Shown piece by piece: positions 1 through 59,856 of a stretch of 64,000 bases of DNA. Location: NCBI RefSeq assembly GCF_008000995.1, contig NZ_CP042828.1, positions 744,001 to 808,000 of the forward strand, given 5' to 3'. The first letter of the stretch is position 1. Every line of letters begins with the position of its first letter. The translations under genes were made by a program, and so were the position numbers. The notes beneath the pieces were generated by a model that worked only from the letters and a program-made list of their open reading frames with translations, was not told where the DNA came from and did no database searches. Source of the stretch: Ruania zhangjianzhongii. GTDB taxonomy: Bacteria > Actinomycetota > Actinomycetes > Actinomycetales > Beutenbergiaceae.

Positions 1-363
1 CAGACCGGACCGGTCTTGCGCCTCGATCACCAACTTCTTCTCCACCGACCAGGGCCGGAAGGTGGCGAGCGGCGACGGTACGCCGAGCTCGTCCCGGAGG
101 ATGGCGATGAACTGCCGGAGTTCTGGCATCGGGACGCGTAGGTCGCGTCGGTATTGGCGCAGGAAGCCGGCCTCCACGAACTCGGCCCAGGTCACCGTGC
201 GGGTGTCGGTGGGTTCAGGCCGCAGGACAGGGAGGTAGGTCGTACCGCGTCGCGTGCCGCCTTCGAGCCAGTAGTGCAGGGTGCTCGGAGGCACACGGAG
301 GAGCCGGGCGGCCTCAGCCTCGGTATACATCTCCCGTTCGAGCAGGGACACAGACGCGATCAC
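1..363 (-). CDS. DUF433/MerR-like antitoxin-type DNA-binding protein, partial
   Basis: Read on the minus strand from a GTG at 361-363 (an ATG at 328-330 is the alternative start), this frame stays open to the window edge, so the C-terminus is missing. The N-terminus contains YTEAEAARLLRVPPSTLHYWLEG, a MerR/excisionase-like helix-turn-helix that reads 'stage in T-x-x-E-A-A-x-L-L'. It is followed by VTWAEFVEAGFLRQYRR and LRQFIAILRDELGV, a layout known from DUF433-containing VapB-like antitoxins. These often autoregulate and pair with a downstream toxin, which would lie outside the window. A perfect palindrome sits directly before the start. The family assignment is by motif memory, not by search. 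Confidence 0.6.
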   Translation of the reverse strand, partial: MIASVSLLEREMYTEAEAARLLRVPPSTLHYWLEGGTRRGTTYLPVLRPEPTDTRTVTWAEFVEAGFLRQYRRDLRVPMPELRQFIAILRDELGVPSPLATFRPWSVEKKLVIEAQDRSGL

Positions 364-365
364 AT

Positions 366-378
366 TGTCAGTCTGACA
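366..378. promoter_or_regulatory. Perfect palindrome TGTCAG-T-CTGACA
   Basis: A 6-1-6 inverted repeat lies three bases upstream of the GTG of the DUF433-type gene and 65 bases beyond the end of the HNH gene. Its place fits an autoregulatory operator. The same half-site recurs in the hairpin at 9852-9897. Confidence 0.45.
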
Positions 379-442
379 GAAGGAGCCTGGAAGGTCGCCG
401 CGATATCCACAGCCTGTTCGTGCGCAGTGGCGGTGACCGTCA

Positions 443-1336
443 TTACCGCAGGAACACCTCGTCCATGTGCCACGTCACCGCATCTGGCTCGGGCCGATCC
501 GCTCGCTTCGCCGGCACCGCGATCGGCTCCCCGGCCCGCGCGTAGAACTCGGTCCCGTTTCCGAACTCGGTGCGCAACTTTGGACTCACGTGCAGCCGGT
601 GCTTCTCGTCGATGCCAAGGTAGCCCTCGTCGAACAGCGTGTGTACGTCCGATCGCAGCAGCAGCCCGTTGCTCACCCGGTGCTTGCCCTCCCGTGAGAT
701 CGGCCGGATGTGCGCCGCCTGCAGTACCGGTCGGATCCGATCGCCGGTGATCGCGCACCGCCGCTGGTAGGCGTCGAGCACGAGCCCACGGAATGCGATC
801 TGCCCGACCCGCGGCACCATCAGCCTCGGGTCTCCGTACGTGGGGGAGTCCCCGCCCCGCGGGAGCGACCGTGCCAGTAGCGCGACCATCGCCTCCTCGA
901 TGGTGCTCCCGTCGGCTGCGTACGACTTCCACTGCACGATGTTCTTGGCGAAGTCGGCCGGGCCGTCGAGCTCGGTACCTTCCCGCGCGAAGAACAGGTC
1001 GCGCAGCAGCAAACACCCGATCAGTGGGTCCGGGTCCCGGTCCTTGCGATAGGCGGCGATCGCCCGCAGCAGATCCGCGTGGCTCTCGACGCCGTTCCCC
1101 TCCCCGAAGAGCTCCCACGCCTCGCTCACCCGCAACTGGGCGTAGCCACTGACGAACCCGCCGCCGACGAGTTGGTTCGCCGGCCAGTGCGTCTTGAACA
1201 AGAACGCTGACCCTTGGTCGGCCACCCGCCACGTCGCCCGCGGCCGTGGCACCCAGAAGTTCGCCTCCGTCAGATGGGGCCGGTCGCGGAGGTAGGCGGC
1301 CCAGTTGGCATCCGTCACTCCGATGGCTGCCTTCAT
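443..1336 (-). CDS. HNH endonuclease family protein
   Basis: Predicted 297-aa nuclease. The C-terminal third carries an HNH-type core (CAITGDRI, then LQAAHIRPI, then SNGLLLRSDVHTLFDEGYLGI), as in restriction-associated HNH proteins. The N-terminal half (GVTDANWAAYLRDRP, FWVPRP) is a typical non-catalytic part of this family and may recognise DNA. The frame can be extended to a GTG at 1417. I prefer the ATG at 1336 because TATTAT lies 6 nt upstream (leaderless promoter) and related proteins usually start at this MKAxIGVTD segment. It is divergent from the methylase operon at 1667, which suggests it is the restriction or effector partner of that locus. That pairing is inferred. Confidence 0.8.
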   Translation of the reverse strand: MKAAIGVTDANWAAYLRDRPHLTEANFWVPRPRATWRVADQGSAFLFKTHWPANQLVGGGFVSGYAQLRVSEAWELFGEGNGVESHADLLRAIAAYRKDRDPDPLIGCLLLRDLFFAREGTELDGPADFAKNIVQWKSYAADGSTIEEAMVALLARSLPRGGDSPTYGDPRLMVPRVGQIAFRGLVLDAYQRRCAITGDRIRPVLQAAHIRPISREGKHRVSNGLLLRSDVHTLFDEGYLGIDEKHRLHVSPKLRTEFGNGTEFYARAGEPIAVPAKRADRPEPDAVTWHMDEVFLR

Positions 1337-1342
1337 GGCCGT

Positions 1343-1348
1343 ATAATA
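1343..1348 (-). promoter_or_regulatory. Leaderless -10 box of the HNH gene
   Basis: TATTAT on the minus strand ends 6 nt before the ATG at 1336. Transcription would start at the A of the start codon. No good -35 is visible 17 nt upstream. Confidence 0.5.
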
Positions 1349-1633
1349 GGCGTCCGTTCCGAAGGCCGGCAGCCCTCTGCATTGGGCATCCGGCGACGGC
1401 GTCCCGTGCGTGATCACGTTTACTCACCGTGCGCTGGTCGCATCGCGATGGCGGTTCGGGTGCCGGTTTGACGCACCAGGTGCCTCGGAATCGCACCCGA
1501 ACCACGAGAGGCCGACGACCGCATCTATGCACCGGATGTCGGTGTCCTCTGCGATAGTGGACACGTGCCCAATGGAGTGGGCGCGCTGAGGTGTCACGTC
1601 ACGAGTTGGTAGGCGTTCGTGCGCGCATCGAAG

Positions 1634-1647
1634 CCCAATACATTGGG
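1634..1647. promoter_or_regulatory. Inverted repeat CCCAAT-AC-ATTGGG upstream of the methylase
   Basis: A perfect 6-2-6 palindrome lies 20 bases before the chosen methylase start, in the 330-bp divergent promoter region between the HNH gene and the methylase operon. It could be an operator for the defence operon. The ribosome binding site GAAGGAG is at 1652-1658. Confidence 0.4.
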
Positions 1648-1666
1648 TGTTGAAGGAGTAGTACGG

Positions 1667-4453
1667 GTGGAGCCGAAGCGGAAATTGATCGAGGTCGCAC
1701 TACCGCTGGAGGTGATCAACGCCGAGTCGGCTCGGGAGAAGTCGATCCGGCATGGGCACCCCTCCACACTGCACCTGTGGTGGGCGCGGCGCCCCCTTGC
1801 GGCAGCCCGCGCCGTGCTGTTCGCTCAGCTCGTCGACGACCCGTCCGCTCACCCGGACCGTTTCCCCACCGCAGAGGAGCAGCAGGTTGAGCGGAACCGG
1901 CTCCACGACATCATCGAGCGGTTGGTGGTCTGGGAGAACGTCAGGGATGAGAAGCTGCTTGCCGAGGCACGGGACGAGATCATGGCGTCCACTCGCGGGA
2001 ACCCGCCACCGATCTTGGATCCGTTCGCTGGCGGCGGCACGATTCCGTTGGAGGCACAGCGTCTTGGCCTGGAGGCGCACGCCTCGGACCTGAATTCGGT
2101 CGCTGTGCTGATCAACAAGGCGCTGATCGAGATCCCGCCCCGGTTCCGGGACCAGGCACCCGTGTCACCGGGGTTGGCCGACTCCGAGATCCGCACCTGG
2201 CGCGGCGCCGAAGGTCTCGCGGCTGACGTGCGCGCCTACGGCGAGTGGATGCGCGAGGAGGCCGAGCGCCGCATCGGTCACCTGTATCCGAAGGCGAACG
2301 TCGACGGGAAGCCGGCGACCGTTATCGCCTGGATCTGGGCCAGGACCGTCACCTGCCCGAACCCGGCCTGCCGGATCGAGATGCCGCTGGTCCGATCCTG
2401 GTGGCTCGGCAAGAAGAAGGGCAAGGAGGCCTACGTCGTCCCCGAGGTCGTCGGCGACCCCGATCACCCGAGCGGGCGGCGGATGGCGTACCGGATCGGG
2501 CACGATGCGAGCGGTCCGGTCAGCGACGGTACGGTCGGACGTCAGGGCGCCGAGTGCGTTGCGTGTAGCACTGGCGTCTCGCTGGAGTACATCCGCGAGG
2601 AAGGCAGAGCCGGCCGGATCGGTGCCCAACTCATGGCGACAGTTGCCGAGGGGAACCGGCGGCGGGTGTACCTCGAACCCGATGCCAAGCATGCTGCCGC
2701 CGCCGAGGTGGAAAAGCCGGTGGATGTGCCAGATGGCGAGCTTCCGATGGAGGCTCTTGGTTTCCGCGTGCAGAACTATGGGTTGACACGATGGGTGGAC
2801 CTCTTCACCAATCGCCAGCTCGTGGCGCTCACCACCTTCAGCGACATGGTCGCCGAGGCCCGAGAACGTGTGGTCGCCGATGCGGTCACGGCGGGGATGT
2901 CGCGTGGGGAACGCTTCACCGATGGTGGCACCGGCGCAGAGGCCTACGGTGACGCGGTGGCGACCTACCTGGGGTTGGGCGTGAGTCGGCTGGCAGATAT
3001 CGCGAACGGGCTTGCGCGGTGGGAAAACACCAGGGAACAGATCCGCAACCTCTTCAGCCGGCAGGTGATTCCGATGATATGGGACTTCGCCGAGACCACG
3101 CCTTTCGGGACGGCAGCCGGTTCCTACGAGGTCAGCCTGGGAAGCCTTTGCAAGGCGATCCGCGATACTGGCGGGCCGGCTTCTATCACGAAACAGGCTG
3201 ACGCATCGGCCCGCTCCTACGCGGGCGCCCTCATCTCCACCGATCCGCCTTACTACGACAATGTCCCTTATGCGGATCTGTCCGACTTCTTCTACGTCTG
3301 GCAGCGCCGAACGCTCCAAGACGTTCACCCGGACCTCTTTCGCACGCTGCTCGTGCCTAAAGCTGAGGAACTCGTCGCCGAGCCGTTCAGACACGGGGGT
3401 AAGGATGGGGCTAAGTCGTTCTTCGAGGATGGATTCCGGAGCGTGTTCGCCCGCGCGCGTGAGGCGGCGCTGCCCGACTATCCGATCACCGTCTACTACG
3501 CCTTCAAGCAGTCCGACACGAACGCTGAAGGCACCTCGTCATCAGGTTGGGAGACCCTGCTCGAGGGCATGATCCGTTCCGGTTGGGCGATCACCGCTAC
3601 GTGGCCGGTGCGAAGTGAATTGTCCAATCGCATGCGTGGCCAAGGAGCCAACGCGTTGGCGTCCTCCATCGTCCTCGCCCTCCGCCCGCGTCCGGAGGAT
3701 GCCCCTGCGACGGATCGACGCGGTTTCATCACCGACCTGCAGGACGAGTTGCCGCAAGCCCTCCGGGAGCTGCAGCACGGACGCATCGCCGCCGTCGACC
3801 TGCCGCAAGCGGCGATCGGCCCCGGGATGGCGGTCTTCTCCCGCTACTCCGCGGTCCACGAACCGGACGGCTCACCTATGACCGTCCGCTCCGCCCTGGC
3901 ACGGATCAACGAGATCCTCGACCAGGTGCTCAACGAGCAGGAGGGCGACTTCGACGCCGCCACCCGGTTCGCCATCGCCTGGTACCGCGCCCACGGCTAC
4001 TCAACGGGGCAGTTTGGCGACGCCGACAACATGGCCCGCTCCCGGAACACTGCCGTCGCCACCCTCGACCGCGGCGGCATCCTCACCAGCCGCGCCGGCA
4101 AGGTCACCCTCCTCAGACCCGACGACCTGCCCGCCGAGTATGACGTGGCCGGTGATGACCACACCGGCACGTGGGAAGCAGCGCATCACCTCATCCGGCT
4201 ACTCAGCACCGAGGGAATCCCCGCCGCCGGCGCCTTCCTCGCCGCTGCCCGCAACCGTCCGGACGGCGCCGTCGAGGATGACCAGGTGAAGGAGCTCGCC
4301 TACCTGCTCTTCCACATCGCCGAGCAACATGGCCGCACCGGCGACGCCCTCGCCTTCAACACCCTCGTCACCTCCTGGGGAGACATCCTTGACGCCGCGA
4401 GAAGCGCTGGCCCGGCCTACGCCCAGTCCGCCATGGACCTCACCGACATCTGA
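1667..4453 (+). CDS. DUF1156 adenine-specific DNA methylase with zinc ribbon
   Basis: A 928-aa methyltransferase of the DUF1156 (COG1743) family. The N-terminus KRKLIEVALPLEVINAESAREKS begins the DUF1156 domain. The SAM-binding motif is DPFAGGGT from D118. The catalytic motif IV is DPPYYDNVPY from D526. A zinc-ribbon-like insert has C230-x4-C235 and C297-x2-C300. The C-terminus (about residue 740 on) is a separate helical part. I chose GTG 1667 because GAAGGAG lies 8 nt upstream and the conserved domain begins immediately; an upstream GTG at 1619 adds 16 residues. It is followed by the DUF262 gene after 20 bp. Family members (PglXI in type 3 BREX, and others beside DUF499 ATPases) modify host DNA for self-recognition. 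That role is inferred here. Confidence 0.85.
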   Translation: MEPKRKLIEVALPLEVINAESAREKSIRHGHPSTLHLWWARRPLAAARAVLFAQLVDDPSAHPDRFPTAEEQQVERNRLHDIIERLVVWENVRDEKLLAEARDEIMASTRGNPPPILDPFAGGGTIPLEAQRLGLEAHASDLNSVAVLINKALIEIPPRFRDQAPVSPGLADSEIRTWRGAEGLAADVRAYGEWMREEAERRIGHLYPKANVDGKPATVIAWIWARTVTCPNPACRIEMPLVRSWWLGKKKGKEAYVVPEVVGDPDHPSGRRMAYRIGHDASGPVSDGTVGRQGAECVACSTGVSLEYIREEGRAGRIGAQLMATVAEGNRRRVYLEPDAKHAAAAEVEKPVDVPDGELPMEALGFRVQNYGLTRWVDLFTNRQLVALTTFSDMVAEARERVVADAVTAGMSRGERFTDGGTGAEAYGDAVATYLGLGVSRLADIANGLARWENTREQIRNLFSRQVIPMIWDFAETTPFGTAAGSYEVSLGSLCKAIRDTGGPASITKQADASARSYAGALISTDPPYYDNVPYADLSDFFYVWQRRTLQDVHPDLFRTLLVPKAEELVAEPFRHGGKDGAKSFFEDGFRSVFARAREAALPDYPITVYYAFKQSDTNAEGTSSSGWETLLEGMIRSGWAITATWPVRSELSNRMRGQGANALASSIVLALRPRPEDAPATDRRGFITDLQDELPQALRELQHGRIAAVDLPQAAIGPGMAVFSRYSAVHEPDGSPMTVRSALARINEILDQVLNEQEGDFDAATRFAIAWYRAHGYSTGQFGDADNMARSRNTAVATLDRGGILTSRAGKVTLLRPDDLPAEYDVAGDDHTGTWEAAHHLIRLLSTEGIPAAGAFLAAARNRPDGAVEDDQVKELAYLLFHIAEQHGRTGDALAFNTLVTSWGDILDAARSAGPAYAQSAMDLTDI

Positions 4454-4473
4454 TTCCCAGGGGGAGAACACCG

Positions 4474-6429
4474 ATGGGTTTCCAGACCCCGCAGAACCCG
4501 CTCAAGGACCTGATCAGCAAGATCCGGCGCGGCAGAATCCAACTTCCCGACTTCCAGCGCGGCTATGTCTGGGACGACGAACGGATCCGTTCCCTGCTGG
4601 TGACCATCCTCCAGGGGCACCCGCTCGGGGTGATCATGACCCTGGAGACCGGCAACGAGAACGTCCGCTTCAAACCCAGCCCGATCGAGGGCTCCGGCAT
4701 CGCCCCGGACACAGTCGAACCCGAACTGCTCGTACTCGACGGTCAGCAGCGGCTCACCTCCCTGTGTCAGGCGCTCACGGGACCTGTCGCCACGGTGAAC
4801 GCCAACGGCAAGCAGGTCGATCGTCGCTACTACCTCGACCTCACCCGGGCCCTGAACGCCCCCGATGACCTGGACGCCGCCGTCCGTTCCCTGCCCGCGG
4901 ACGGCAAGCTGAAGGAGAACTTCGACCGTGACGTCGTCCTTGACGTCTCCACCCGGGAGAACCAGATCGCCGAAGGGCTCTTCCCGCTGAGCCTTACCTA
5001 CGCCGACGAAGGCACCGACTGGCTCTGGGACTACCCCGACTCCACCGCCGCGCGCACCGTCCTCAACACGCTGATCAGACCGGCGCAGGGCTATCAGATT
5101 CCCTCGATCCAGCTCGACCGCTCCACGAGCAAAGCGGCTGTGACGACCGTTTTCGAGAAGGTCAATCAAGGCGGAATGAAGCTCACCGTCTTCGAGCTCC
5201 TGACCGCAAAGTTCGCCGGCGATCCCGACTACTTCCGCGAGTACGGTCGCGACTTCCGACTCAAGTCCGACTGGGACGAGACCGCCGCCGTGATCCGCCA
5301 CCACCCGGTGCTCGAGGGTGTCGGGTCGACCGAGTTCCTGCAGGCCGTCACGCTGCTGGCATCCCTGCGCTCCGACGGTGCGACCACGGCTCGCAAGGAA
5401 GACGTGCTCGACCTCGAGCTCTCCGACTACCTCACGTGGGCGCCGCGCGTACGCGGGGCTCTGCCGTGGGTGGCGGCCTTCCTCGAGGACCAGCACATCC
5501 ACAGCGGGCGTGACGTTCCCTATCCCACCCAGATCGTCTCCCTCGCCACGGTGCGCGTGGTGCTGGGGGAGGACATGGACGTGCACGGGGTGCGCCGTCG
5601 GCTTGCGCACTGGTACTGGTGCGGCGTGCTGGGGGAGCTGTACTCCTCTAGCACGGAGACCCGGTTCGCCCGCGACCTCGAACAGGTGCCCGAATGGGCG
5701 CGCGACCTCGACGGCGCCACCGCGGCACGCCCGCGCACGGTCGAGGACGCGAACTTCGTCGAGTCGCGGCTACTCTCCCTGCGCACCCGCAACGCTGCCG
5801 CCTACAAGGGGATCTATGCGCTCCTGATGGCGCAGGACACCCGCGACTGGCTGTTCAACCAGCCGTTCGACCGGGCCCACTACCGCGACCTGGCCGTGGA
5901 TATCCACCACATTTTCCCCAAGGCGTGGTGCCTGAAGAACGACATCGACCCGGCGCTGCGGGAGAGCATCGTCAACAAGACGCCGCTCGCGCGCAAGACC
6001 AACCAGGCCGTCGGTGGAGTGTCTCCGGCCGTCTACATGCCGCGGCTGTACGGGCGAGTCGGCATCCCACCCGAGGACCTGGACGCGATCGTCGCTGCGC
6101 ACCAGATTGACGTCGCAGCCCTGCGGGCCGGTGACTTCACCACCTTCTTCACCCACCGCCGGGAAGCGCTCTTGCAACTGATCGAGACTGCGATGGGCAA
6201 ACGGGCCGCACGGGACCTCGACGACGACGAACTGCTCGGCGGGAGCGAGGCTCCCGACCTATACGCGGCCGAGCCCGACGACCCTGAGGATGGCGTCGAC
6301 GAGCCGGACGAGGCGGGCCCGCCCCGCGATGCCCGTCCGCCCGACTACGCCGGCTGGCACGACGGCCCGGCACAGCCAGTCACACCGGCGTCCGTCACCG
6401 CCGATAGATCGAACATGGGAGGCAACTGA
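4474..6429 (+). CDS. DUF262/DUF1524 GmrSD-like nuclease
   Basis: 651 aa. The N-terminus is a DUF262 (ParB/Srx-like nucleotide-binding) domain with LPDFQRGYVWDDERIRSLL and the hallmark DGQQRLT from D89. The C-terminus is a DUF1524 His-Me nuclease: DIHHIFPK at 476-483, then SIVNKTPLARKTNQ. The same two modules make up type IV restriction enzymes such as GmrS-GmrD, BrxU and SspE, which use nucleotide hydrolysis to license cleavage of modified or foreign DNA. The last 60 residues are acidic and proline-rich. The start ATG has GGGGGAG upstream. It lies between the methylase (20-bp gap) and the DUF499 ATPase (1-bp gap), so all three are probably translated from one mRNA. Confidence 0.87.
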   Translation: MGFQTPQNPLKDLISKIRRGRIQLPDFQRGYVWDDERIRSLLVTILQGHPLGVIMTLETGNENVRFKPSPIEGSGIAPDTVEPELLVLDGQQRLTSLCQALTGPVATVNANGKQVDRRYYLDLTRALNAPDDLDAAVRSLPADGKLKENFDRDVVLDVSTRENQIAEGLFPLSLTYADEGTDWLWDYPDSTAARTVLNTLIRPAQGYQIPSIQLDRSTSKAAVTTVFEKVNQGGMKLTVFELLTAKFAGDPDYFREYGRDFRLKSDWDETAAVIRHHPVLEGVGSTEFLQAVTLLASLRSDGATTARKEDVLDLELSDYLTWAPRVRGALPWVAAFLEDQHIHSGRDVPYPTQIVSLATVRVVLGEDMDVHGVRRRLAHWYWCGVLGELYSSSTETRFARDLEQVPEWARDLDGATAARPRTVEDANFVESRLLSLRTRNAAAYKGIYALLMAQDTRDWLFNQPFDRAHYRDLAVDIHHIFPKAWCLKNDIDPALRESIVNKTPLARKTNQAVGGVSPAVYMPRLYGRVGIPPEDLDAIVAAHQIDVAALRAGDFTTFFTHRREALLQLIETAMGKRAARDLDDDELLGGSEAPDLYAAEPDDPEDGVDEPDEAGPPRDARPPDYAGWHDGPAQPVTPASVTADRSNMGGN

Positions 6430-6430
6430 C

Positions 6431-9400
6431 ATGGCCACGTCCAACCGCGACCGCATCGGGAAGATGTTCGACTTGCTCTCCCCGAACCTGGAGGCCTTCA
6501 TTCACCGCGCTGTCGGCTCCGAGCTGACCGCCGGGACCACCTGGGTGGATCTCGTCCGCCTGCGCGACCAGGACAAGGGCAACAAGGGTAAGGAGTACGC
6601 GGCAGAGGACCCGTACCTGCAGCTGCGCTTCATCACTCAGGGCATCGCGAACCAGGTCAAGCGCGGCTGGTGGCCGTTCAGCAAGCTTCTCTCCCGAGTG
6701 GAGGAGAGCCATGCGAGTGAGTTGTTCGGAGTACGCAACGACTGGGCACACGGGAAGTCATTCACCGACGACGACGCCTACCGAGCTCTTGACACCGCGG
6801 AGCGGTTCACCCGTGCCATCGGCGCACCCAAGGCTGCCGATGAGGTCCGCGACTTGCGGCTCAGTCTGCGCCGCGTGACCGCCGAGAAGGACGACCGGCG
6901 CAGCATCCGCAGCTCGGTGGTCAGCCCGGAGGTCTCCGGTCGCCGACCCTGGCGGGAAGTGCTGCCGCCGCACGAGGACGTCGCCACCGGCAACTTCCAG
7001 GCAGCCCAGTTTGCCGCCGACCTCTACCAGGTAGCCACCAACACTGAGGCGAACGCCGCCTATGCCGACCCGGTCGAGTTCTTCTCCCGCACCTACCTCA
7101 CCGAGGGCTTGCAGGATCTCGTCGGCCGAGCCGTCCGGCGCCTGGCCGGAGACCAGAATGCTTCCCCGGTGGTGAACCTGCAGACCAACTTCGGTGGTGG
7201 CAAGACCCACTCGATGCTCGCTCTCTGGCACCTCGCAGCCGGGCGACCAGCCGCCGACTACCCCCAGGACGTTCAGGAGCTGCTCGCGCAGCACGGATAC
7301 GACGCCACCACCGATGTGCGGCGGGTGGCCCTGGTCGGTCAGCACCTCGCCGTCTCCGGACAGGTGAAGGAGGACGGCACCCGCGTCAACACCCTCTGGG
7401 GCGAGCTCGCCTGGCAGCTCGGCGGTCGGGACGCCTACGAGATCGTCCGCGCCAGCGACGAAGCGAGCACCGCCCCCGGGGAAGCCCTGCATCGGTTACT
7501 GCGCAGCCACGCACCGGCGCTGATCCTGATCGACGAATGGGTCGCCTACGCCCGCCAGCTCATCAGCCCCGAGACCCAGGCTGGCGGGGCGTTCGACACC
7601 CAGTTCACCTTCGCCCAATCCCTGACCGAAGCGGCGGCCGCGATCCCCGGGCTGTTCCTGGCCATCTCCATCCCTGCCTCCCACCAGAGCGAGTCGGCCG
7701 GCGCCGTCGTCGGTAACGAAGAAGAGGTAGGCGGAGCACACGGCCAGGAGGCGCTGCGCCGCTTGCAGAACGTGGTGCGCCGGGTCGCCGACCAGTGGCG
7801 GCCAGCGTCCTCCAACGAGGCATATCACATCGTGCGGCAGCGGCTGTTCGTACAACCGGACGCCCAAGCGCTCGCCGAGATCCGGTCCGTGGCGCGCCAG
7901 TTCGGCGAGATGTACCGGGCCAACCCGGGCGACTTCCCCACGGATGCCCGCGATAGTGAGTACGAGGCCCGGATTCGGCAGACCTACCCGATCCATCCGG
8001 AACTGTTCGACCGGCTGTATGAGGACTGGTCGTCCCTAGAGCGGTTCCAGCGCACCCGTGGTGTGCTGCGGCTGCTGAACGTAGTGATCCACGCGCTCTG
8101 GGTAGGTGAGGATGCCTCTCCGCTGATTCTTCCCGGGTCCGTGCCGCTGGCCGCCGGGGACGTGAACTCCGAGCTCACCCAGTACCTGCCGGATTCGTGG
8201 AAGGCGGTCATCGACGCCGATGTGGACGGGCCGCAGTCCGAACCCGCCCGGATCGATGCCGGGCGGCCGGTGTTCGGGCAGCGGTCGGTGACCAAGCGGC
8301 TCGCTCGCACCGTGTTCATCGGCTCCGCACCCCGGCTCGGTAGTGCGCAGAAGGGGATCGAGACCACCAGGGTGTTCCTCGGCACGGCAGTCCCCGGCGA
8401 TGTGACCGGCAACTTCCACTCCGCGCTCGCGGCGCTTGGCGACCGGGCCACCTACTTTTACTCCGGTGCCGGGAAATTCTGGTATGACCTGCAGGCGAAC
8501 ATCTCTCGCCGCGCGAAGGACCACGCCGAACGCCTACATGACGAAGAGGTTTGGGCCGAGATCCAGCGGCTCCTCAAGGACCAGTCGATGCAGCGGGGCG
8601 ATTTCGCCGGCGTGCACGTGTGCCCGGAGGAGAACGCTGACATCCCGGATACCGATGAAGCCCGGCTGGTGATCCTGCACCCCCAGTACGCGCACAAGCG
8701 CGACGACCAGGACTCCACCGCTCGCGCGTTCGCCCGCCAGGCCGCCGAACGCCGCGGCTCGGCCGCCCGCACCTACCGGAACATGGTGGTGTTCCTCGCC
8801 GCCGACTCCGGCCGCATGACTGAGCTGAACGCCGCGGTGCGTGAGTTCCTCGGCTGGAGCGAGGTGGCCGACCACGCCACTGACCTCGATCTGACTGAGA
8901 ACCAGAAGAACCAGGCGATCGAGCGGCGACGGCAGGCCGGGGAGACCGCCCGATCGCGACTACTGAACACCTACCAGTGGGCGCTGCTGCCTACTGAGCG
9001 GGAGGCCGGCACGGGGTTCCGCATCTCCGAGCGAAAAGTGGAGGGCTCGGCTGACTCGCTCGCCGAACGAGTGACCCGGCGGCTCGGCAACGACGGTGAA
9101 CTGAACACCCGGCAGGCGGCGGTGAACATCCGCCGTCAACTGGATCGGATCCCTCAACTGTGGGCGGCCGGGCACGTGAGCGTCGGGGAGCTCTGGGCGG
9201 CGTTCGCCAGCTACCCGTACCTGAGCCGGTTGCGAGACCAGCAGGTGCTCGGGCAGGGAGTGACCGACCACCTCGTCACCTGGGACCGGGACGGATTCGC
9301 GCTCGCCGAGGCATGGGACGAATCAACCGAGCGATATGGAGGCCTGTGGCTGCCTGACGACGCAAGTTCCGCTCCTATGGTCACGGCCAGCACACTCGTG

Positions 9401-9832
9401 GTCCAGTCGGAGCGGGCGCGTGCCCAGCGGGAGAAGGATCAGGCCGAGGAGGCCGAGCGCCGTTCCCGCGCCGACCAGGGCGGAACAGCCACGGTGCCCG
9501 CAGGGAGAGGTGAGCCAGACGGTGGAACTCAGGGGACGCCGTCGCCCGCTGGGGCGAACCCCGTGGGCGGGACGGCTGTGCCACCTACGGAGCCAGCCCC
9601 GAAGACCAGGTTCTTCGGCTCGCGCGAGCTGCGGCCCGATGCGCTCGGACTCGACTTCAGGAAGGTGCACGACGAGGTACTTGCCCATCTCGCGCAGCCG
9701 GGAGTGCAGCTCACCGTGCGCATCGACGTTGAGGCCATCAAGAGCGAGGGGTTCGATGCCGGCCAGGTGCGGACCGTCTCGGAGAACGCCCGCACCTTGA
9801 AATTCGACCAGTCCGGGTTCGAGGAGGCGTGA
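6431..9832 (+). CDS. HEPN (Swt1-like) - DUF499 ATPase, PglY/BrxC-like
   Basis: 1133 aa. Residues 1-135 form a Swt1-type HEPN domain (FDLLSPNLEAFI, then R102-NDWA-H107, an R-x4-H HEPN ribonuclease-type motif). The DUF499 AAA+-type ATPase follows: Walker A FGGGKTH at 254-260 and Walker B LILIDE at 364-369. A charged linker (AREKDQAEEAERR) precedes a small C-terminal domain rich in acidic and basic residues. DUF499 proteins relate to PglY/BrxC of BREX. The ATG at 6431 has GGGAGG at 6418-6423; an upstream in-frame GTG would overlap the DUF262 gene deeply. It is the last gene of the methylase-DUF262-DUF499 operon and probably its motor or sensor. Confidence 0.87.
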   Translation: MATSNRDRIGKMFDLLSPNLEAFIHRAVGSELTAGTTWVDLVRLRDQDKGNKGKEYAAEDPYLQLRFITQGIANQVKRGWWPFSKLLSRVEESHASELFGVRNDWAHGKSFTDDDAYRALDTAERFTRAIGAPKAADEVRDLRLSLRRVTAEKDDRRSIRSSVVSPEVSGRRPWREVLPPHEDVATGNFQAAQFAADLYQVATNTEANAAYADPVEFFSRTYLTEGLQDLVGRAVRRLAGDQNASPVVNLQTNFGGGKTHSMLALWHLAAGRPAADYPQDVQELLAQHGYDATTDVRRVALVGQHLAVSGQVKEDGTRVNTLWGELAWQLGGRDAYEIVRASDEASTAPGEALHRLLRSHAPALILIDEWVAYARQLISPETQAGGAFDTQFTFAQSLTEAAAAIPGLFLAISIPASHQSESAGAVVGNEEEVGGAHGQEALRRLQNVVRRVADQWRPASSNEAYHIVRQRLFVQPDAQALAEIRSVARQFGEMYRANPGDFPTDARDSEYEARIRQTYPIHPELFDRLYEDWSSLERFQRTRGVLRLLNVVIHALWVGEDASPLILPGSVPLAAGDVNSELTQYLPDSWKAVIDADVDGPQSEPARIDAGRPVFGQRSVTKRLARTVFIGSAPRLGSAQKGIETTRVFLGTAVPGDVTGNFHSALAALGDRATYFYSGAGKFWYDLQANISRRAKDHAERLHDEEVWAEIQRLLKDQSMQRGDFAGVHVCPEENADIPDTDEARLVILHPQYAHKRDDQDSTARAFARQAAERRGSAARTYRNMVVFLAADSGRMTELNAAVREFLGWSEVADHATDLDLTENQKNQAIERRRQAGETARSRLLNTYQWALLPTEREAGTGFRISERKVEGSADSLAERVTRRLGNDGELNTRQAAVNIRRQLDRIPQLWAAGHVSVGELWAAFASYPYLSRLRDQQVLGQGVTDHLVTWDRDGFALAEAWDESTERYGGLWLPDDASSAPMVTASTLVVQSERARAQREKDQAEEAERRSRADQGGTATVPAGRGEPDGGTQGTPSPAGANPVGGTAVPPTEPAPKTRFFGSRELRPDALGLDFRKVHDEVLAHLAQPGVQLTVRIDVEAIKSEGFDAGQVRTVSENARTLKFDQSGFEEA

Positions 9833-9851
9833 GCCCTACCCGGCTTCCCGG

Positions 9852-9897
9852 GTCGTCCTGTCAGAGGTGCGCCATAGCGCACGTCTGACATGACGAC
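9852..9897. terminator. 46-bp near-perfect inverted repeat closing the defence operon
   Basis: Arms of 21 nt (9852-9872 and 9877-9897) around a CATA loop differ at two positions. The arms contain TGTCAGA and its complement. It lies between the convergent DUF499 and glycerophosphodiesterase genes, so a two-way terminator is likely, although there is no T-run. Confidence 0.6.
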
Positions 9898-49871: not shown

Positions 49872-50010
49872 CGAGCCTGTCCCGGACCGCATCGTCTCGA
49901 TCGGTGTGCCGGAGGCCGTGGAAGCGGCTCGTAGCCTTTCCCGCGCATAAGTCGAGGCACGATGTTGGTCGTCCTACAGCCGCGCTCCCTGCCCACGAGT
50001 TGACCACGAA

Positions 50011-50059
50011 GAAACCCCGGAATCTCGCCAAAACTACTCATTATGGCGAGATTTCGGGG
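50011..50059 (-). terminator. Terminator of the original tRNA-Ser(GGA) locus, left of the island
   Basis: Arms CCCCGGAATCTCGCCA (50015-50030) and 50044-50059 pair with one mismatch, followed on the minus strand by TTTC. It closely copies the hairpin at 59712-59763 and is what would be expected beyond the tRNA before integration. Confidence 0.75.
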
Positions 50060-50061
50060 CG

Positions 50062-50079
50062 CTGGCGGAGGATGGGGGA
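50062..50079. repeat. att repeat, left (island-chromosome boundary)
   Basis: Eighteen bases identical to the tRNA 3' end at 59768-59785, followed by GTAG in place of the tRNA T-arm. Confidence 0.85.
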
Positions 50080-50258
50080 GTAGAACCGAAAGGCCTGTGA
50101 CCTGGGCTTTTGCGTCCCACTTGAGCGCTGTGTCAGCAGTGTGTCAGGTTGACGGTGCTGTCCGCGGCCGGGCATCTGGCAACGCGGGCTCGGTCGAGCT
50201 TGCCATCACCACTTCCGTCCGCCGGTGCTCTGACATTGTTCATTTCGTTAGTGCGTGA

Positions 50259-50575
50259 GTTTCAGGCCCCGGAACGCATCGAGGGCGTTTGCTGCTCGTC
50301 GGGAATCGCGGGGCAGAGGTCCGTGTGGTGCCGTTGACCGCGACGGTCGCTGAACGCAGAGCACGTAGCTGGCGGGTGATGCTGCGGATGCTCAGCCCGG
50401 TGCGGTCCTGGGATTCGCGGAAGAGTGCCGGTGCGGTGAAGGCGATGGTCAGGTGGCCGGCGACCCGGCGCTGTTGCGGGTCCAGGTCGAAACAACGGGC
50501 GCTTCTCCGGCCGAGGCTCAGGTTCCCGACGGCGTACGAGAACCGGGCCCGCACCCGCAACATCCACCGTCCCAC
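50259..50575 (-). pseudogene. Transposase C-terminal remnant (IS1634-like)
   Basis: The frame gives RRVAGHLTIAFTAPALFRESQDRTGLSIRSITRQLRALRSATVAVNGTTRT, like the conserved C-terminal region of IS1634/IS4-type transposases (xAHLTIxFxALA). The end of the protein continues in a second frame (PAIPDEQQTPSMRSGA), so there is a frameshift. No start or catalytic part remains. Confidence 0.55.
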
Positions 50576-50619
50576 CTACCCACGCGATCTCTCAGCTAAG
50601 CCAAATGGTCCAACTCAGG

Positions 50620-50961
50620 TCATCTGGTCGTTAACACCACGATAAGAATTATCGCCAGGGAGTAAACCACAAAGCACGTAACGTGCCAGCGCATCCTTGT
50701 GATGGCAGCGGTGATCGCCATGGCCGCAATCGTAACCAGCCCCACCAGGACAAGACCGCCGCGAATCGAGTACCACCTATCGGCTAAGAAGCAGTTCTCC
50801 ACGGCGGGCGTCACCGGCGCACAGAGTTCGGGCCCGGCGTAGACCCACACGAGCTGAACTGCGACGCAGAGCACCGCGACCACCAGAGTCAGTGCCAGCC
50901 ACAGCAGCGGAACTGGCCTCACAGGCCAGTTCCGCTGCTGGCGGGAAGATCTGCCGTTCAC
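50620..50961 (-). CDS. Small membrane protein on the island
   Basis: 113 aa from the GTG at 50961 (a start at 50994 adds 11 residues). Three hydrophobic stretches are seen: VPLLWLALTLVVAVLCVAVQLVWV, GGLVLVGLVTIAAMAITAAI, and WHVTCFVVYSLAIILIVVL. Two Cys residues (LCAPV and NCFLAD) sit in the external loop. No family is recognised. Confidence 0.55.
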   Translation of the reverse strand: MNGRSSRQQRNWPVRPVPLLWLALTLVVAVLCVAVQLVWVYAGPELCAPVTPAVENCFLADRWYSIRGGLVLVGLVTIAAMAITAAITRMRWHVTCFVVYSLAIILIVVLTTR

Positions 50962-51285
50962 TTGGCCCTCTCGACATCTGGCGGCCTTCGCCACGATGCT
51001 CGCTACCTCAAGGGATGCTAACTGCTGCCGCCGTCACGCCAATCCAGATGACAACCCGTAGTCGATCATCGTGGTCCTATCCGCCAGGTAGGCGTTGGTT
51101 TGCCAGACGTCCAAGTTGATCCCCAAACCGTAGCAGCGCGCGAAGCGAAGTGGTCGCAGGGCATGGCCCGACCTCGACTTCCGACTGCTTTACCTCACGC
51201 CGACCCACTGCCTCGATTTGATACAGGCAATCGGGGCCATGGTGCTCTGGTTCTGCAGTTGCAGACGGGTGGGGCGGACTGGGTC

Positions 51286-52116
51286 TCACGAGTCGGGTAC
51301 GTCGGTGAACGTGTCGGTGGGGTTGCTCAACCATTCGATGCGATCCAGCGGCCAGGTGATGACAAATGCTCTGCCCACCACATTACGTACGGGCACGAAC
51401 CCTCCGCCCACGGCATCGGGGTGTGCACGTGAGTCGCCTGAACGGGGTCGGTTGTCGCCGAGCACGAACAGGTGGTCCTCCGGGACCATCACGTCAAAGG
51501 TCCGCTCGCTCGGCTCCGCGCCGGGCACCACGTACGGCTCGGTAATCGGTTCGCCGTTCACCGCGATCAGACCCTCGTCGGTGCAACAGGTCACGTGGTC
51601 GCCGCCGGTGCCGACCACCCGCTTGATCACGTGCTCGTCGGCATGCTCGGGCAGCAGCCCGATCCAGGTGAGCACCTGCTCGGCAGCGTTCAGCTCGTGC
51701 GGTTCGGTGTCCAACCAGCCGCCGGGGTCGAGGAAGACCACCACGTCACCGCGTTCCAGGTCCATCACCTGCGGGGCGAGCTTGTTCACCACCAGCCGGT
51801 CCCCGACCATCAGCGTCGGCTCCATCGACACGCTCGGGATGAAGAACGCCTGCGCCAGGAACGTCTTGATGACCAGAGACAGGATCAGCGCCGAGACCAC
51901 CACGATCGCCGACTCACGCAGGAACGCCCGCACCGGATGACGGCGCTTGCCGTCCTTGCTGTCGTGATGCGCCGCATCGGCACCGCCGTCGTCGGCCGTG
52001 GGGTTGTCGTGCGGCCGTCGCCCCTCCCCGTGGTGATCGCCCGTCATCCCCGAATACCGTTCATTTGGCCGCCCGTTAACCCCGTTGTGATTACTTACCA
52101 GCTGCGAGACCTTCAC
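51286..52116 (-). CDS. lepB: Signal peptidase I (island-borne)
   Basis: 276 aa. Type-I signal peptidase that cuts exported preproteins. The cytosolic N-terminus is about 65 residues, then a membrane anchor (AIVVVSALILSLVIKTFLAQAFF), the catalytic Ser97 in IPSVSMEPTL, the Lys165 in HVIKRVVGTGGDHV, and the late box GDNRPRSGDSR. All of the usual boxes are intact, so it should be active. ATG 52047 is an alternative start. It is unusual to find a second lepB on a tRNA-linked island; it may process exported cargo or be a transferred copy of a core gene. Confidence 0.88.
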   Translation of the reverse strand: MKVSQLVSNHNGVNGRPNERYSGMTGDHHGEGRRPHDNPTADDGGADAAHHDSKDGKRRHPVRAFLRESAIVVVSALILSLVIKTFLAQAFFIPSVSMEPTLMVGDRLVVNKLAPQVMDLERGDVVVFLDPGGWLDTEPHELNAAEQVLTWIGLLPEHADEHVIKRVVGTGGDHVTCCTDEGLIAVNGEPITEPYVVPGAEPSERTFDVMVPEDHLFVLGDNRPRSGDSRAHPDAVGGGFVPVRNVVGRAFVITWPLDRIEWLSNPTDTFTDVPDS

Positions 52117-52171
52117 CCGCGTCGACGACTGGGGCAGTGGTTCCCGCTCGCGCGCAGGAGAACTTCAGCCG

Positions 52172-52576
52172 CTAGGCGTCAGTCCGCCGCACATCTATCA
52201 TGACCCGGTACGGGTCGTTCGTACTGGACAGACGATATTCCGTCTCGCCGCTGTTCAGACCGAGGTGCAGGTTCCCGCCCCCTTCGAAGCCGGTGTGCAC
52301 GACGGCCTGCACGAGTCCATCCTCCAGGATGGTGACCGCTTTCAGCGGGCCCTCGAGACGTGGTGACATTCCGGGAATGCTGATTGAAAGCACGAACCCC
52401 CCCTCCATGGGTATGGGTCTGCCCGACCCCTCCGCGACCCGGACCGCGGCATGACGGATGCAGAAGCGAGCGAGTGCCGTCTCGAGCGCCTCGAGCCTGC
52501 CGCGGTCTGCCGTGGCGAAAGCGGTGGGTGATCGTAGCGGCCTTCGAGGACGCTGGCGAGGCCTCCTCACGAACAT
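52172..52576 (-). CDS. Protein of unknown function, divergent from lipoprotein
   Basis: 134 aa. No signal peptide; the second half (EGGFVLSISIPGMSPRLEGPLKAVTILEDGLVQAVVHTGFEGGGNLHLGLNSGETEYRLSSTNDPYRVMIDVRR) has alternating beta-strand pattern like a lipocalin/AMIN-like sheet. ATG 52576 is chosen because an upstream extension would run through the divergent lipoprotein gene. It could be a real island protein but nothing similar comes to mind. Confidence 0.55.
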   Translation of the reverse strand: MFVRRPRQRPRRPLRSPTAFATADRGRLEALETALARFCIRHAAVRVAEGSGRPIPMEGGFVLSISIPGMSPRLEGPLKAVTILEDGLVQAVVHTGFEGGGNLHLGLNSGETEYRLSSTNDPYRVMIDVRRTDA

Positions 52577-52594
52577 GTTCCGTTCGGGCCCCGC

Positions 52595-52600
52595 TATTAT
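52595..52600 (+). promoter_or_regulatory. Leaderless -10 box of the island lipoprotein
   Basis: TATTAT six bases before GTG 52607. Confidence 0.55.
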
Positions 52601-52606
52601 GCTGGC

Positions 52607-53395
52607 GTGCGTTTGCTCGCGCGCTACGTTGCCTGCGCACTCGCCGCCGTAGGAGCGGTCGCACTCGCCGGCTGCTCCTCGCCCGCGTCCCTGGGCGAGG
52701 AGTACGCGAGGAACTCCATCGACAACCTGCTGGCACCGACGGTCTTCCACTCGCACGCTTACGACATTGTGCCGTTCGCTGAGCACGTCCAAGCGGCTAC
52801 CGAGGACAGCGGGATCGTCATGCTCGGCGTTGACGAGGCGGATGACGCCGACAGCGAGGCGGCCGACGAGGCGATCGGCTGGATCACCTTGGGTCTCATC
52901 GCGCCCGACACACGAGCACCGCAAGGGTACTGGGACTCACCGTCCGAGCAGGACCCGGGTCCCTACTGCTTCCGGGTCGGCTTCAACCATTGGGGTGTGG
53001 ATGACGTCCGCGGCGTGGATTGTCCCGACGAACTCGTGGCTGTACCCGCGCCGCCGTCTCAGCGTCCCCGTGTCGCAGTTAACGCCGAGGAGGCTGTGCG
53101 GTCGGTCCTGACGGCCCTGCCCGACGACCTGCGGCCAGAGGCGGACGTCGTCGCGGCGGTGACGGTGCTTCTGGAGCCGCACCCGAACGGCGTCACGCCG
53201 CTCGCAGAGGTCACGGCGAGTATTGAGGGTCGGGTGGTCGCGGTTGCCACGGGCGACGATGATGACTGCGTCCTCGTGCTCCGCACTGGGACCGGCGAGG
53301 TAGATGACGTGCACGTTCCGTCGATCTACCTGAATCGCGGAGAGCTCGGCTGCAGGGCCAGCACCGCGTTCGCAGATCTGCGGCCGCCGCACTGA
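52607..53395 (+). CDS. Island lipoprotein
   Basis: 262 aa. Signal peptide RLLARYVACALAAVGAVALAGC with lipobox LAGC. The mature part is acidic and has two further Cys-containing segments (GPYCFRVGFNHWGVDDVRGVDCPDEL and GELGCRA) that look able to form disulfides. A -10 box 6 nt before the GTG suggests a leaderless mRNA. No domain is recognised. It could be a substrate of the nearby signal peptidases only in general terms, since lipoproteins are cut by signal peptidase II. Confidence 0.7.
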   Translation: MRLLARYVACALAAVGAVALAGCSSPASLGEEYARNSIDNLLAPTVFHSHAYDIVPFAEHVQAATEDSGIVMLGVDEADDADSEAADEAIGWITLGLIAPDTRAPQGYWDSPSEQDPGPYCFRVGFNHWGVDDVRGVDCPDELVAVPAPPSQRPRVAVNAEEAVRSVLTALPDDLRPEADVVAAVTVLLEPHPNGVTPLAEVTASIEGRVVAVATGDDDDCVLVLRTGTGEVDDVHVPSIYLNRGELGCRASTAFADLRPPH

Positions 53396-53693
53396 CCGCC
53401 TCCTCGGCACCTCCGAGAGCTTGTCGCGAAGGCAGCAGGGAGTCAGGACGCCGGCCCGCCATTCACTGGCAGTGGAACTCGCGGCCGGCTTCCGCAGCAA
53501 CAGTGCGCCGGCCGAAAGAGCCCAGACGAGGGGTATCTCGTAAATCTACAGTTCTATGGGACAGTCGCCGGGCGGTCGCGCTCATGCGCGTCCGCAGTGC
53601 AGTCCTGTACGCGCTGGTCTCTTGTGAACTCATCTCGCAGTGAAGTGCCTCATGATGATGAGTTCGAGGGGTTTGAGAGGCGAACTGGTCGGC

Positions 53694-54230
53694 ATGAGGC
53701 ATCTCGGCTGCACCCGCGTGAGCACGGCCACGCAGGACGCGCAGCTCCAGGTCGATACGCTCCTGGCTGCCGGGGTGCAGCAGCGGGACGTGTTCTCCGA
53801 TGTCACCTCCGGCCGCAGGACCACGGCGAGCGGCCGGGGATGAAGCGCCTGATCGAGTACGGCCCAGGATGGTGACACGATCGTGGTCTGGCGCATCGAC
53901 CGGTTGGGCCGGTCCCTGATCGATGTCCTGAACGCCGTCAACTTGCTGCGTGAGAAGGGGGTGAAGATCCGGTCGGTCTCGGACGGCATCGACCTGGAGA
54001 CCTCGGTGGGCAGGATGATGCTGGGGATGTTGGCCACCTTGGCCGAGTACGAGCGCGAACTCATCACCGCACGGGTCAATGTCGGTATCGACGCAGCGAA
54101 GCAGAACGGCACTCGATTCGGGCGGCCGCCGGTAGACCCGGACGCGATCGCCGAGAAGCTCGCGATCGCCCAAGACGCCCGCGCGAAGGGCCGTACCGCT
54201 GAAGAAGCCGCCCGGCTGGTCACGCGCCAC
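53694..54230 (+). pseudogene. Serine recombinase (resolvase/invertase), frameshifted
   Basis: The N-terminus HLGCTRVSTATQDAQLQVDTLLAAGVQQRDVFSDVTSG holds the catalytic Ser. ERPGMKRLIEYGPG then continues in another frame, and DTIVVWRIDRLGRSLIDVLNAVNLL through AAKQNGTRFGRPPVDPDAIAEKLAIAQDARAKGRTAEEAARLV continues in a third. At least two frameshifts near 53830 and 53875 break what was one Tn3-type resolvase. The C-terminal HTH is lost to the next element. Confidence 0.8.
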
Positions 54231-54287
54231 GCTCTCGCCCTTAGCACGCCGCCCGCGCGCGCGAAGCCGTTTCCCAGCAGGTGTGAG

Positions 54288-54560
54288 ATGGACGGGCTGG
54301 AGCGGTGGCGCATCCTCCGGCTGCACGTCGAGGACGGCATCGCGCTGACGGCCCTGGCACGGGAGACCGGTACCGCCGTGCGTACCCTGCAACGCTGGAA
54401 CCGTCGCTACCAACACCGCGCCACGGCGAACCGGACACGGACCGTGTTCGACACCCCCGGAGATCGATGTCTCCGAGATTCGCGTCTACGACCACGACAA
54501 CTTCGCCTCACCGACGACGTCATCGAAGCAGCCGCCAGCATCCTCGTAATCGGAAACTAG
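54288..54560 (+). pseudogene. Transposase/integrase N-terminal remnant
   Basis: ATG 54288 begins MDGLERWRILRLHVEDGIALTALARETGTAVRTLQRWNRRY, the HTH start of Mu/IS481-type transposases. The frame then fuses to unrelated sequence; another frame near 54460 gives EIDVSEIRVYDHDNF, a likely C-terminal fragment. It joins the broken resolvase directly, so one element inserted into another and both decayed. Confidence 0.55.
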
Positions 54561-54656
54561 CGCTACCAAGCGATCACGGAAGACCGCCCACCAAGCGATG
54601 GAGTCCACAGCCAACGGGGATTCTGAACAACCCGAGGCCGATGGGGCAGCGGACTG

Positions 54657-55151
54657 CTACCTCGTCCCTGGCAGTCGCTTAGGCTTGCTGCGGCTTACTG
54701 CCGCACCGTGTCTGTGAGGGGGTCGCGTGGCCTCGTCGCGAGTGAGCATCTCGGCGACTACGTCCTGCCACTGCGGCTCAGCTAGTTCACCGTCGCGCAG
54801 TCGTCGGGACAGTTCGCGTAGGACCTTGCGGCAGGCCACCGGAGAGGCCAGCACCCGCGCAATAGTCTCGTCCCACGACAGCTCCGTGCGCTTCACCACG
54901 ACTTCGCTCGCGATCGCCCCGTTGGTTGCTGCTCGCCGTTCCTCGTACGCCGCGCGCCGACAACGCTGCGAACACCACACTCGTGGCCGACCACGACCGC
55001 TGGTGCTTCTCGGAACATCACCGCCGCACCGCGGACACGTATTGCCGAGCAGCGTCGACTCGTGAGAGTCCGTGTCGCGGTGCTCGCTGGCGGCGATGCG
55101 TTGCCGCCGAGCGCGCTCCCGCGCCGCCGCTTTGCGTCGATTCGAAGCCAT
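54657..55151 (-). CDS. Zinc-finger protein of unknown function
   Basis: 164 aa. Basic N-terminus, then a four-Cys finger: NTCPRCGGDVPRSTSGRGRPRVWCSQRCRRAAYEERR. The remaining 70 residues are helical and acidic-basic mixed (SWDETIARVLASPVACRKVLRELSRRLRDGELAEPQWQDVVAEML). The ATG at 55151 has GGGAGG 6 nt upstream. Proteins with this finger are common on actinobacterial plasmids and islands; the role is not known. Confidence 0.65.
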   Translation of the reverse strand: MASNRRKAAARERARRQRIAASEHRDTDSHESTLLGNTCPRCGGDVPRSTSGRGRPRVWCSQRCRRAAYEERRAATNGAIASEVVVKRTELSWDETIARVLASPVACRKVLRELSRRLRDGELAEPQWQDVVAEMLTRDEATRPPHRHGAAVSRSKPKRLPGTR

Positions 55152-55444
55152 AGCCAACCTCCCGAACGATTACGTACGGACGAAAGTCCCAGCGTAGTGC
55201 AAGAGGTGTGCAGGCCTCGTCGTCTGTACAGCGGAACATGCATTGCCGTTGGGCGGGTGCCTGTACGGCAGTGCTTTCATGCGACGAAAGAAGCAAGAGG
55301 GGCAAGCGGAACCGTGGGGCCTCGGGTGTGCCGGTGACGTGGGCGTGTGATGGCACTGCTGGTTTGGTGGTGTCGGCAGGCTCGCCTTGCAGACGGGTCC
55401 CCATGCGGAGGTGTTCCGGCCGTTAGCGGATTGGGTCCAGCAAC

Positions 55445-55511
55445 CTGAAACGCGCTCACGAGTTATTTCAGCTTGTGTCGTAGACTGAAACAACGCCGCG
55501 TCGTATTTCAG
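55445..55511. promoter_or_regulatory. Two palindromes CTGAAA-N15-TTTCAG ahead of fic
   Basis: CTGAAA at 55445 and TTTCAG at 55466-55471 form the first; CTGAAA at 55485 and TTTCAG at 55506-55511 form the second. The spacer is exactly 15 bp both times and the pairs repeat every 40 bp. The second overlaps a TAGACT -10-like element (55481) and leads straight into the SD AGGAGG (55510-55515). Confidence 0.75.
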
Positions 55512-55520
55512 GAGGATCCG

Positions 55521-56744: not shown

Positions 56745-57100
56745 ACCCGCCACGCCAAGACATGGACCCACCAACTGCCTACGCGGCGGTTGGACGCACC
56801 TTCTAAAGGCGTGGGTAACGTTGGTCTCCTCCGATTGCGTGCCATCAACGGCAGGATGGCGTCCGTGAGCGAAGGCAACCAATAGGGGCGATCCTGGCCC
56901 GAAGTGAGGCCGAGACCCGTCACTGTGGGTTGCCCTGGTGGAAGCCGGGTGAGCGCCTAACGTTCTGGAGGGCAGGTCCGCGAACTTCACGACACTACGC
57001 GAGTGGATCGGCCTCTCAGGGAGCCAAGAAGTCCTGAGGCGAGACGAGTTACCAGCATTGGGGCACAGCAGACCGGTAGACATAGCGCGCAGAATGGGTG
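56745..57100. other. Non-coding region after fic, possible gene fragment
   Basis: No intact gene is seen. A plus-strand stretch ending near 57110 reads LREWIGLSGSQEVLRRDELPALGHSRPVDIARRMGVSA, which looks like the tail of a lost protein. Nothing else is recognised. Confidence 0.3.
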
Positions 57101-59767: not shown

Positions 59768-59785
59768 CTGGCGGAGGATGGGGGA
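59768..59785. repeat. att repeat, right (inside tRNA-Ser(GGA))
   Basis: The same 18 bases as at 50062-50079; here they are the 3' end of the tRNA gene. Confidence 0.85.
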
Positions 59786-59856
59786 TTCGAACCCCCGAGG
59801 GCTTGCACCCAACACGCTTTCCAAGCGTGCGCCATAGGCCACTAGGCGAATCCTCC
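59769..59856 (-). tRNA. tRNA-Ser (GGA)
   Basis: 88 nt with GGAGGAT/ATCCTCC acceptor, CCA, long variable arm and TTGGAAA anticodon loop (GGA). It reads UCC and UCU codons and is the attachment site of the island. Confidence 0.95.

Follow-up and report, generated by a model that had tools for sequence, protein, structure and literature searches.

The window analysed here, the 64,000 nucleotides at C2:744001-808000 of the 5.1-Mb genome of Ruania zhangjianzhongii, begins inside a locus which, judged from its sequence, is a known kind of system – Hma, or the Type-1 DUF499-centred BREX-related (BR) system – with add-ons of known kinds, and which is likely to serve in anti-phage defence. Quite probably it is a complete Hma system carrying embedded nucleases that act independently of Hma. 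The assignment follows from an SNF2 helicase gene lying to the left of the window and from PADLOC matches to HmaA, HmaB and HmaC. The locus starts approximately 4.6 kb to the left of position 1 and is cut by the window; in the full genome, hmaA ends 822 bp to the left of that position. In the following list negative window coordinates lie to the left of position 1 (positions in stretch L002 are window positions plus 10000), and HTH stands for helix-turn-helix.

-4607..-4299, minus strand: XRE regulator, divergent from hmaA, left of the window
-4232..-822, plus strand: hmaA, SNF2 helicase with nuclease-like C-terminus, 1136 amino acids, left of the window
-758..-321, minus strand: PIN_10 (PIN-like) gene, left of the window
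-317..351, minus strand: MerR-like HTH and DUF433 gene, 222 amino acids, its front part at window 1..351
443..1336, minus strand: HNH nuclease, 297 amino acids, with a predicted N-terminal PUA-superfamily reader (HNH_2, 6yex profile, structure model and ASCH folds)
1634..1647, no strand: palindrome CCCAATACATTGGG upstream of hmaB, a possible operator (suggestive only)
1667..4453, plus strand: hmaB, DUF1156 and DPPY DNA methyltransferase, 928 amino acids (PADLOC HmaB, Pfam DUF1156)
4474..6429, plus strand: embedded DUF262 (BrxU/GmrSD-like) nuclease, 651 amino acids (GmrSD_N, PDC-M55C, HEC-05, BrxU chain 7p9k)
6431..9832, plus strand: hmaC, HEPN_Swt1 and DUF499 ATPase, 1133 amino acids (PADLOC HmaC, Pfam)

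Identity as an Hma system

The gene identities are established by profile. HmaA matches PADLOC model PDLC00659 with 1295.6 bits (residues 1-1109), HmaB matches PDLC00660 with 1113.3 bits and Pfam DUF1156 (PF06634, 3.3e-31), and HmaC matches PDLC00662 with 897.4 bits (residues 172-1132, i.e. without the HEPN part); all three PADLOC matches are nearly full length. In Pfam, HmaC contains DUF499 (3.7e-30) and HEPN_Swt1 (1.4e-27) domains, and it carries the motifs RNDWAH at 102 and FGGGKTHS at 254. The C-terminus of HmaA possesses a NOV_C domain (1.4e-15) with the motif GYDVLS...RIEVKAR. Both Type-1 marks, the HEPN fusion and the helicase C-terminal nuclease, are present here at the sequence level. 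Of the 34 HEPN-bearing HmaC proteins of the sampled loci described below, 27 carry RNxWAH-type motifs; a pattern count for the nuclease motif (12/37 HmaA proteins) was left unused since the pattern was too strict.

The triad of helicase, methylase and DUF499 protein appears in earlier papers as the COG1743-DUF499-SWI2/SNF2 operon (PMC7641849), as Hma (PMC8565338) and as the Type-1 DUF499-centred BR system (PMC12839542). The last of these counts 1370 HEPN fusions among 2446 Type-1 taxa and 1921 fusions of helicase and nuclease, treats the former as the mark of a subset of Type-1 BR, and includes TUDOR and RRM domains in the description. As methylated base PMC8565338 gives m5C, versus N6-adenine in PMC12839542. 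Like these systems, the locus has a helicase-nuclease, a DUF1156 methylase and a HEPN-fused DUF499 ATPase in the order A-B-C; unlike them, it has a three-gene antisense block (PIN, MerR-DUF433, HNH) between hmaA and hmaB, a DUF262 gene between hmaB and hmaC, and an XRE gene.

The NCBIfam anti-phage models scored far under their cut-offs (DUF1156, 109.6 versus 1000 bits; DUF499, 176.4 versus 1200 bits) and are taken to describe another subtype. BREX was set aside: at this locus the block between ribH and GDPD contains neither a PglZ-like nor a large unassigned gene, and the helicase scores 328.4 bits with BrxHI and 307.6 with BrxHII versus 1295.6 with HmaA.

An earlier note, made from the letters of the window, had proposed a new system free of PglZ, helicase and phospholipase D. 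That proposal fails twice, on the helicase with C-terminal nuclease-like domain situated just to the left of position 1 and on the PADLOC matches to the catalogued Hma system; the locus looked novel because the window edge cut off the helicase gene. The genes listed there, the operon coordinates and the intervals of 20 and 1 bp in hmaB-DUF262-hmaC were all confirmed, and the named residues are right, D526 starting DPPY, H479 lying in DIHHIFP and K258 in GGGKTH. Pfam bore out the calls of DUF1156, DUF262, DUF499, HEPN and HNH domains, but not that of a DUF1524 half. A gene does exist where a DUF433-type gene had been placed (1-363), but only its MerR-like HTH front (1..351) falls in the window, the DUF433 domain being further left.

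Sampling of Hma loci

A search for HmaB-family proteins gave matches with E <= 0.001 for 60 of 396 genomes of the phylum and for 44 of 394 of the class; the sets overlap, and many matches are weak or short. Wider stretches, mostly picked by score, covered 20 places from the phylum search, 20 places in 19 genomes from the class search, and one place (L094) from a search with HmaA. Including the window's own locus, the sample comprised 42 stretches with HmaB; among these 42, HmaC is present in 38, HmaA in 35 and the full set of three in 32. Matches of less than 150 summed bits were excluded from these counts, some stretches stop at contig ends, and L090 and L093 were left out (no HmaB).

The sampled loci vary in their contents. 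The A-B and B-C gaps of L035, L040, L044, L050, L148 and L149 hold Schlafen AlbA_2, OLD-like AAA ATPases, a HEPN/nucleotidyltransferase pair, PHP with an SMC-like ATPase, NERD, SMODS and the SF1 helicase PDC-S53. An insert with transposase-like open reading frames (so judged by sequence alone) splits hmaB in two at L046:10922-12478 and L159:10772-12410, two tandem hmaA genes occur at L037:1305-8290, and at L155:3788-7279 hmaA has the opposite orientation to hmaB and hmaC.

The embedded DUF262 nuclease

The DUF262 protein contains a GmrSD_N domain (PF03235, 2e-31) with a DGQQR motif. In PADLOC it matches PDC-M55C (71 bits) and, over residues 7-243 of 651, HEC-05 (70.5 bits). The BrxU chain 7p9k is both its best profile match (6.2e-9) and its best fold match (3.3e-9; weak model). 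Its C-terminal part lacks a DUF1524/GmrSD_C match in Pfam (E 0.23 in the relative L100); an HxxP motif is present there, and DIHH.FP is invariant across eight aligned copies. The protein is like the BrxU/HEC-05/GmrSD-like type IV enzymes in its DUF262 N-terminal half with DGQQR, its C-terminal HxxP and its embedding in a restriction locus, but differs in that the similarity is weak and its C-terminal domain is not called by Pfam. Two points weigh against carrying the comparison further: the structure model is weak, with a mean predicted local distance difference test score (pLDDT) of 60.7 overall, and, because the HEC-05 match is weak, the BrxU substrate may not carry over.

A DUF262 gene occupies the hmaB-hmaC gap in 3 of 38 loci (the window, L147 and L159, the latter two of one genus), so the order hmaB-DUF262-hmaC recurs. 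In the hmaA-hmaB gap it is found in 2 of 35 loci (L036 and L038, one genus). Partial or distant matches adjoin hmaC in L034, L045 and L049; in L090 such a match is close to an hmaA. DUF262 matches of any kind, mostly distant, occur in 52 of the 396 phylum genomes, and a contig scan of genomes with the DUF262 protein gave four loci. The closest relatives, L100-L103, with 67-69% identity, do not adjoin Hma: a PglX-like gene (1772.3 bits) is about 2 kb from the L103 copy, N6-methylase genes are about 3 and 5 kb from the L102 copy (the second with HsdM_N), and no restriction-modification (R-M) gene was seen around the L100 and L101 copies, few of whose neighbouring genes were searched. The L084 copy (54-56% identity) is linked to type I R-M, adjoining HsdM with HsdR nearby. 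None of the five genomes of L084 and L100-L103 has an HmaB match (completeness is known for one). Since 35 of the 38 loci have no such gene between hmaB and hmaC, and relatives of it are found in genomes that show no HmaB match, it is separable from Hma.

The DUF262 tree was built from 14 rows, of which two are long branches; left out were three partial sequences (L045, L049, L088) and two distant ones (L090, L091). The groups to be tested were named before the tree was made and after the identities were seen. The window copy grouped with L100-L103 (100/100), and L147/L159 grouped with L084 (99/97). A clade of the window, L147 and L159 was rejected by the approximately unbiased test (p-AU 4.5e-26), as was one uniting these three with L036 and L038 (p-AU 0.0015). 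Because the Hma-embedded copies are not one clade, we infer, as the shortest reading of the tree, two independent entries into the hmaB-hmaC gap; the rival account is a single entry followed by two exits.

GmrSD-like genes embedded in Hma have already been published, as cited in PMC11411939, and such genes have been described more than once within restriction loci. Precedents are TgvAB, embedded in type I R-M (PMC11411939), and BrxU, beside BREX. TgvAB is alike in being a GmrSD-family enzyme inside an R-M operon, proposed to complement the host system, and different in consisting of two proteins in type I R-M, versus one DUF262 protein in Hma here.

The divergent HNH nuclease

The HNH protein matches Pfam HNH_2 (PF13391, 3.4e-13). 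Its start at 1336 is plausible, since the region starting there is shared by seven of nine aligned relatives (whose start codons were chosen by the analyst). A profile of 10 sequences matched 6yex (2.1e-13) in the HNH half only; 6YEX is named in PMC7897488, which deals with VcaM4I, an EVE-HNH enzyme. Among the Foldseek matches listed, the N-terminal domain is most similar to ASCH domains (3.5e-6, probability 1.00, template modelling score 0.70 by target), with the EVE, YTH and McrB N-terminal domains matching much more weakly. Because the predicted N-terminal domain matches ASCH folds and the HNH half matches 6yex, the protein is probably a modification-dependent nuclease with a PUA-superfamily (ASCH/EVE-like) base reader. 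It is like VcaM4I in length (297 versus 309 amino acids), in the aligned C-terminal HNH half and in the predicted N-terminal PUA-superfamily fold; it differs in that the profile match is limited to the HNH half and that, in the Foldseek ranking for the N-terminal half, EVE comes after ASCH. A phosphorothioate-dependent HNH enzyme (NF045808) was rejected, with the HNH part only matching at 78.5 bits versus a cut-off of 180.

Several observations weigh against this assignment or against a link with Hma. The model is weak overall, with a whole-model mean pLDDT of 57.3, residues 1-120 being near 80. The top ASCH matches are 13-15% identical, VcaM4I is absent from the best 50 of 256 Foldseek matches, and Pfam gives no match for the N-terminal half. 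ASCH domains have been suggested to read methylated adenine; if they do, the enzyme could be at odds with the mark set by HmaB itself. Since the HNH gene occurs in only 1 of 42 sampled Hma loci, the window's own, it may be associated with Hma by coincidence. Around the relatives (nine aligned) there were no HmaA, HmaB or HmaC matches in eight of eight wider stretches; one relative, L174, directly follows a gene of 1044 amino acids taken for HsdR from its sequence alone.

Neighbouring genes and a candidate operator

The DUF433 domain of the MerR-DUF433 protein (residues 164-215, 1.9e-7, over cut-off) is encoded to the left of the window, and the HTH matches of the protein are under the Pfam cut-offs. 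The PIN_10 gene begins 3 nucleotides after this gene; the two, at -758..351 between hmaA and hmaB and antisense to the hma genes, resemble a toxin-antitoxin pair, in which the MerR-DUF433 protein would be a probable antitoxin or regulator of the PIN_10 gene. Elsewhere in the sample of Hma loci, neither the XRE gene nor the HNH/PIN/MerR block is matched.

Between the palindrome CCCAATACATTGGG and hmaB there are 19 bp. The genome contains the pattern of this palindrome, CCCAATNCATTGGG, a single time, and the readable 130-bp regions before hmaA and hmaB of other Hma loci showed no copy of the palindrome. There are three copies of CATTGGGC in the 84 kb examined, one beginning 23 bp before hmaA and two in the HNH-hmaB gap; 2 copies seen in the window versus 1.69 expected do not amount to over-representation. 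Both were picked after being seen, and CCCAATACATTGGG as a possible operator, like the placement of CATTGGGC, is suggestive only. On a bolder proposal, which we regard as tentative and less likely than not, the island would be a jointly regulated two-tier immune system. A single XRE regulator, together with an operator CCCAAT/ATTGGG common to hmaA, to hmaB-duf262-hmaC and to the HNH gene, would govern all of these; unmodified DNA would be killed by one system and modified DNA by two modification-reading nucleases, and selection for the pairing would account for repeated entries of DUF262 enzymes into the B-C gap.

Limits of the island

The limits of the island are established versus one relative. 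On the left ribD, ribBA and ribH precede the XRE gene, and the Hma block as a whole lies between ribH and GDPD. In the same-genus genome G400 these two genes are 142 bp apart, GDPD and five more right-flank genes following ribH in the order seen here. Homology to G400 extends as far as the ribH stop codon and is picked up again no more than about 12 bases past the hmaC stop, in a hairpin region, and the 14.5-kb block is therefore read as a clean insertion here or a loss in G400. In five other same-genus genomes ribH and a GDPD gene are 0.7-1.5 kb apart; because the latter is only 54-60% identical, it may be another gene than the flank GDPD here. None of the six same-genus ribH-GDPD stretches has an HmaA, HmaB or HmaC match, and a search of seven same-genus genomes with HmaA gave a top match of E 1.7e-29 at 29% identity. 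No direct repeats of at least 9 bp were found between the two island flanks, which share one 9-bp inverted match.

Short hmaA and hmaB fragments lie close together in a same-order genome (G062:C1:260330-262205), apparently a decayed Hma locus. Elsewhere in the window, the G+C content of 50001-58000 is 0.64-0.66 versus about 0.70 in much of the window, and a tRNA-Ser gene is located at 59769-59856; this region is a possible second acquired one.

Working model

In the favoured reading, that of a complete Hma system with independent nucleases, HmaB would methylate host DNA (on adenine, by homology), and HmaC would scan for unmodified invading DNA and recruit the HmaA helicase-nuclease to destroy it, with the HEPN domain of HmaC as a backup RNase. 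The BrxU-like DUF262 and PUA-HNH enzymes would cut invading DNA with base modifications, and so cover phages whose modified DNA hides them from Hma. We infer every biochemical activity, the substrates and the division of labour in this scheme.

It is also conceivable, although we consider it unlikely, that the embedded genes merely hitch-hike, defence genes gathering in islands without any working link to Hma. The many unrelated inserts in the A-B and B-C gaps elsewhere (Schlafen AlbA_2, OLD-like AAA, HEPN/nucleotidyltransferase, NERD, SMODS, SF1 helicase) and the XRE gene and HNH/PIN/MerR block peculiar to this locus in our sample agree with it, but one enzyme family, DUF262, has members in the B-C gap from two branches of its tree that are not linked, and GmrSD-like genes have been described within restriction loci more than once. 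The earlier note's single integrated system, in which self is marked by the methylase and sensing falls to the HEPN-ATPase, with DUF262 and HNH as obligate cutters, is highly improbable: the tight operon, the DGQQR and HxxP motifs and the same gene order in two other genomes of one genus favour it, but HmaA is present with a nuclease-like motif of its own, the B-C gap mostly lacks DUF262, five genomes with DUF262 relatives show no HmaB match, the Hma-embedded copies are not one clade, and the HNH relatives lie away from Hma in all eight contexts.

Significance

Correcting a window-edge artefact, the missing helicase, which made a known system look new, leaves a useful remainder: DUF262 nucleases from two branches of their family that are not linked occupy the same gap of the Hma operon, and such nucleases are also found in genomes without an HmaB match, which argues that the embedded DUF262-type genes are separate add-on weapons and not subunits. 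A second point of interest is the presence of a predicted modification-reading HNH nuclease in the same island as a BrxU-like nuclease.

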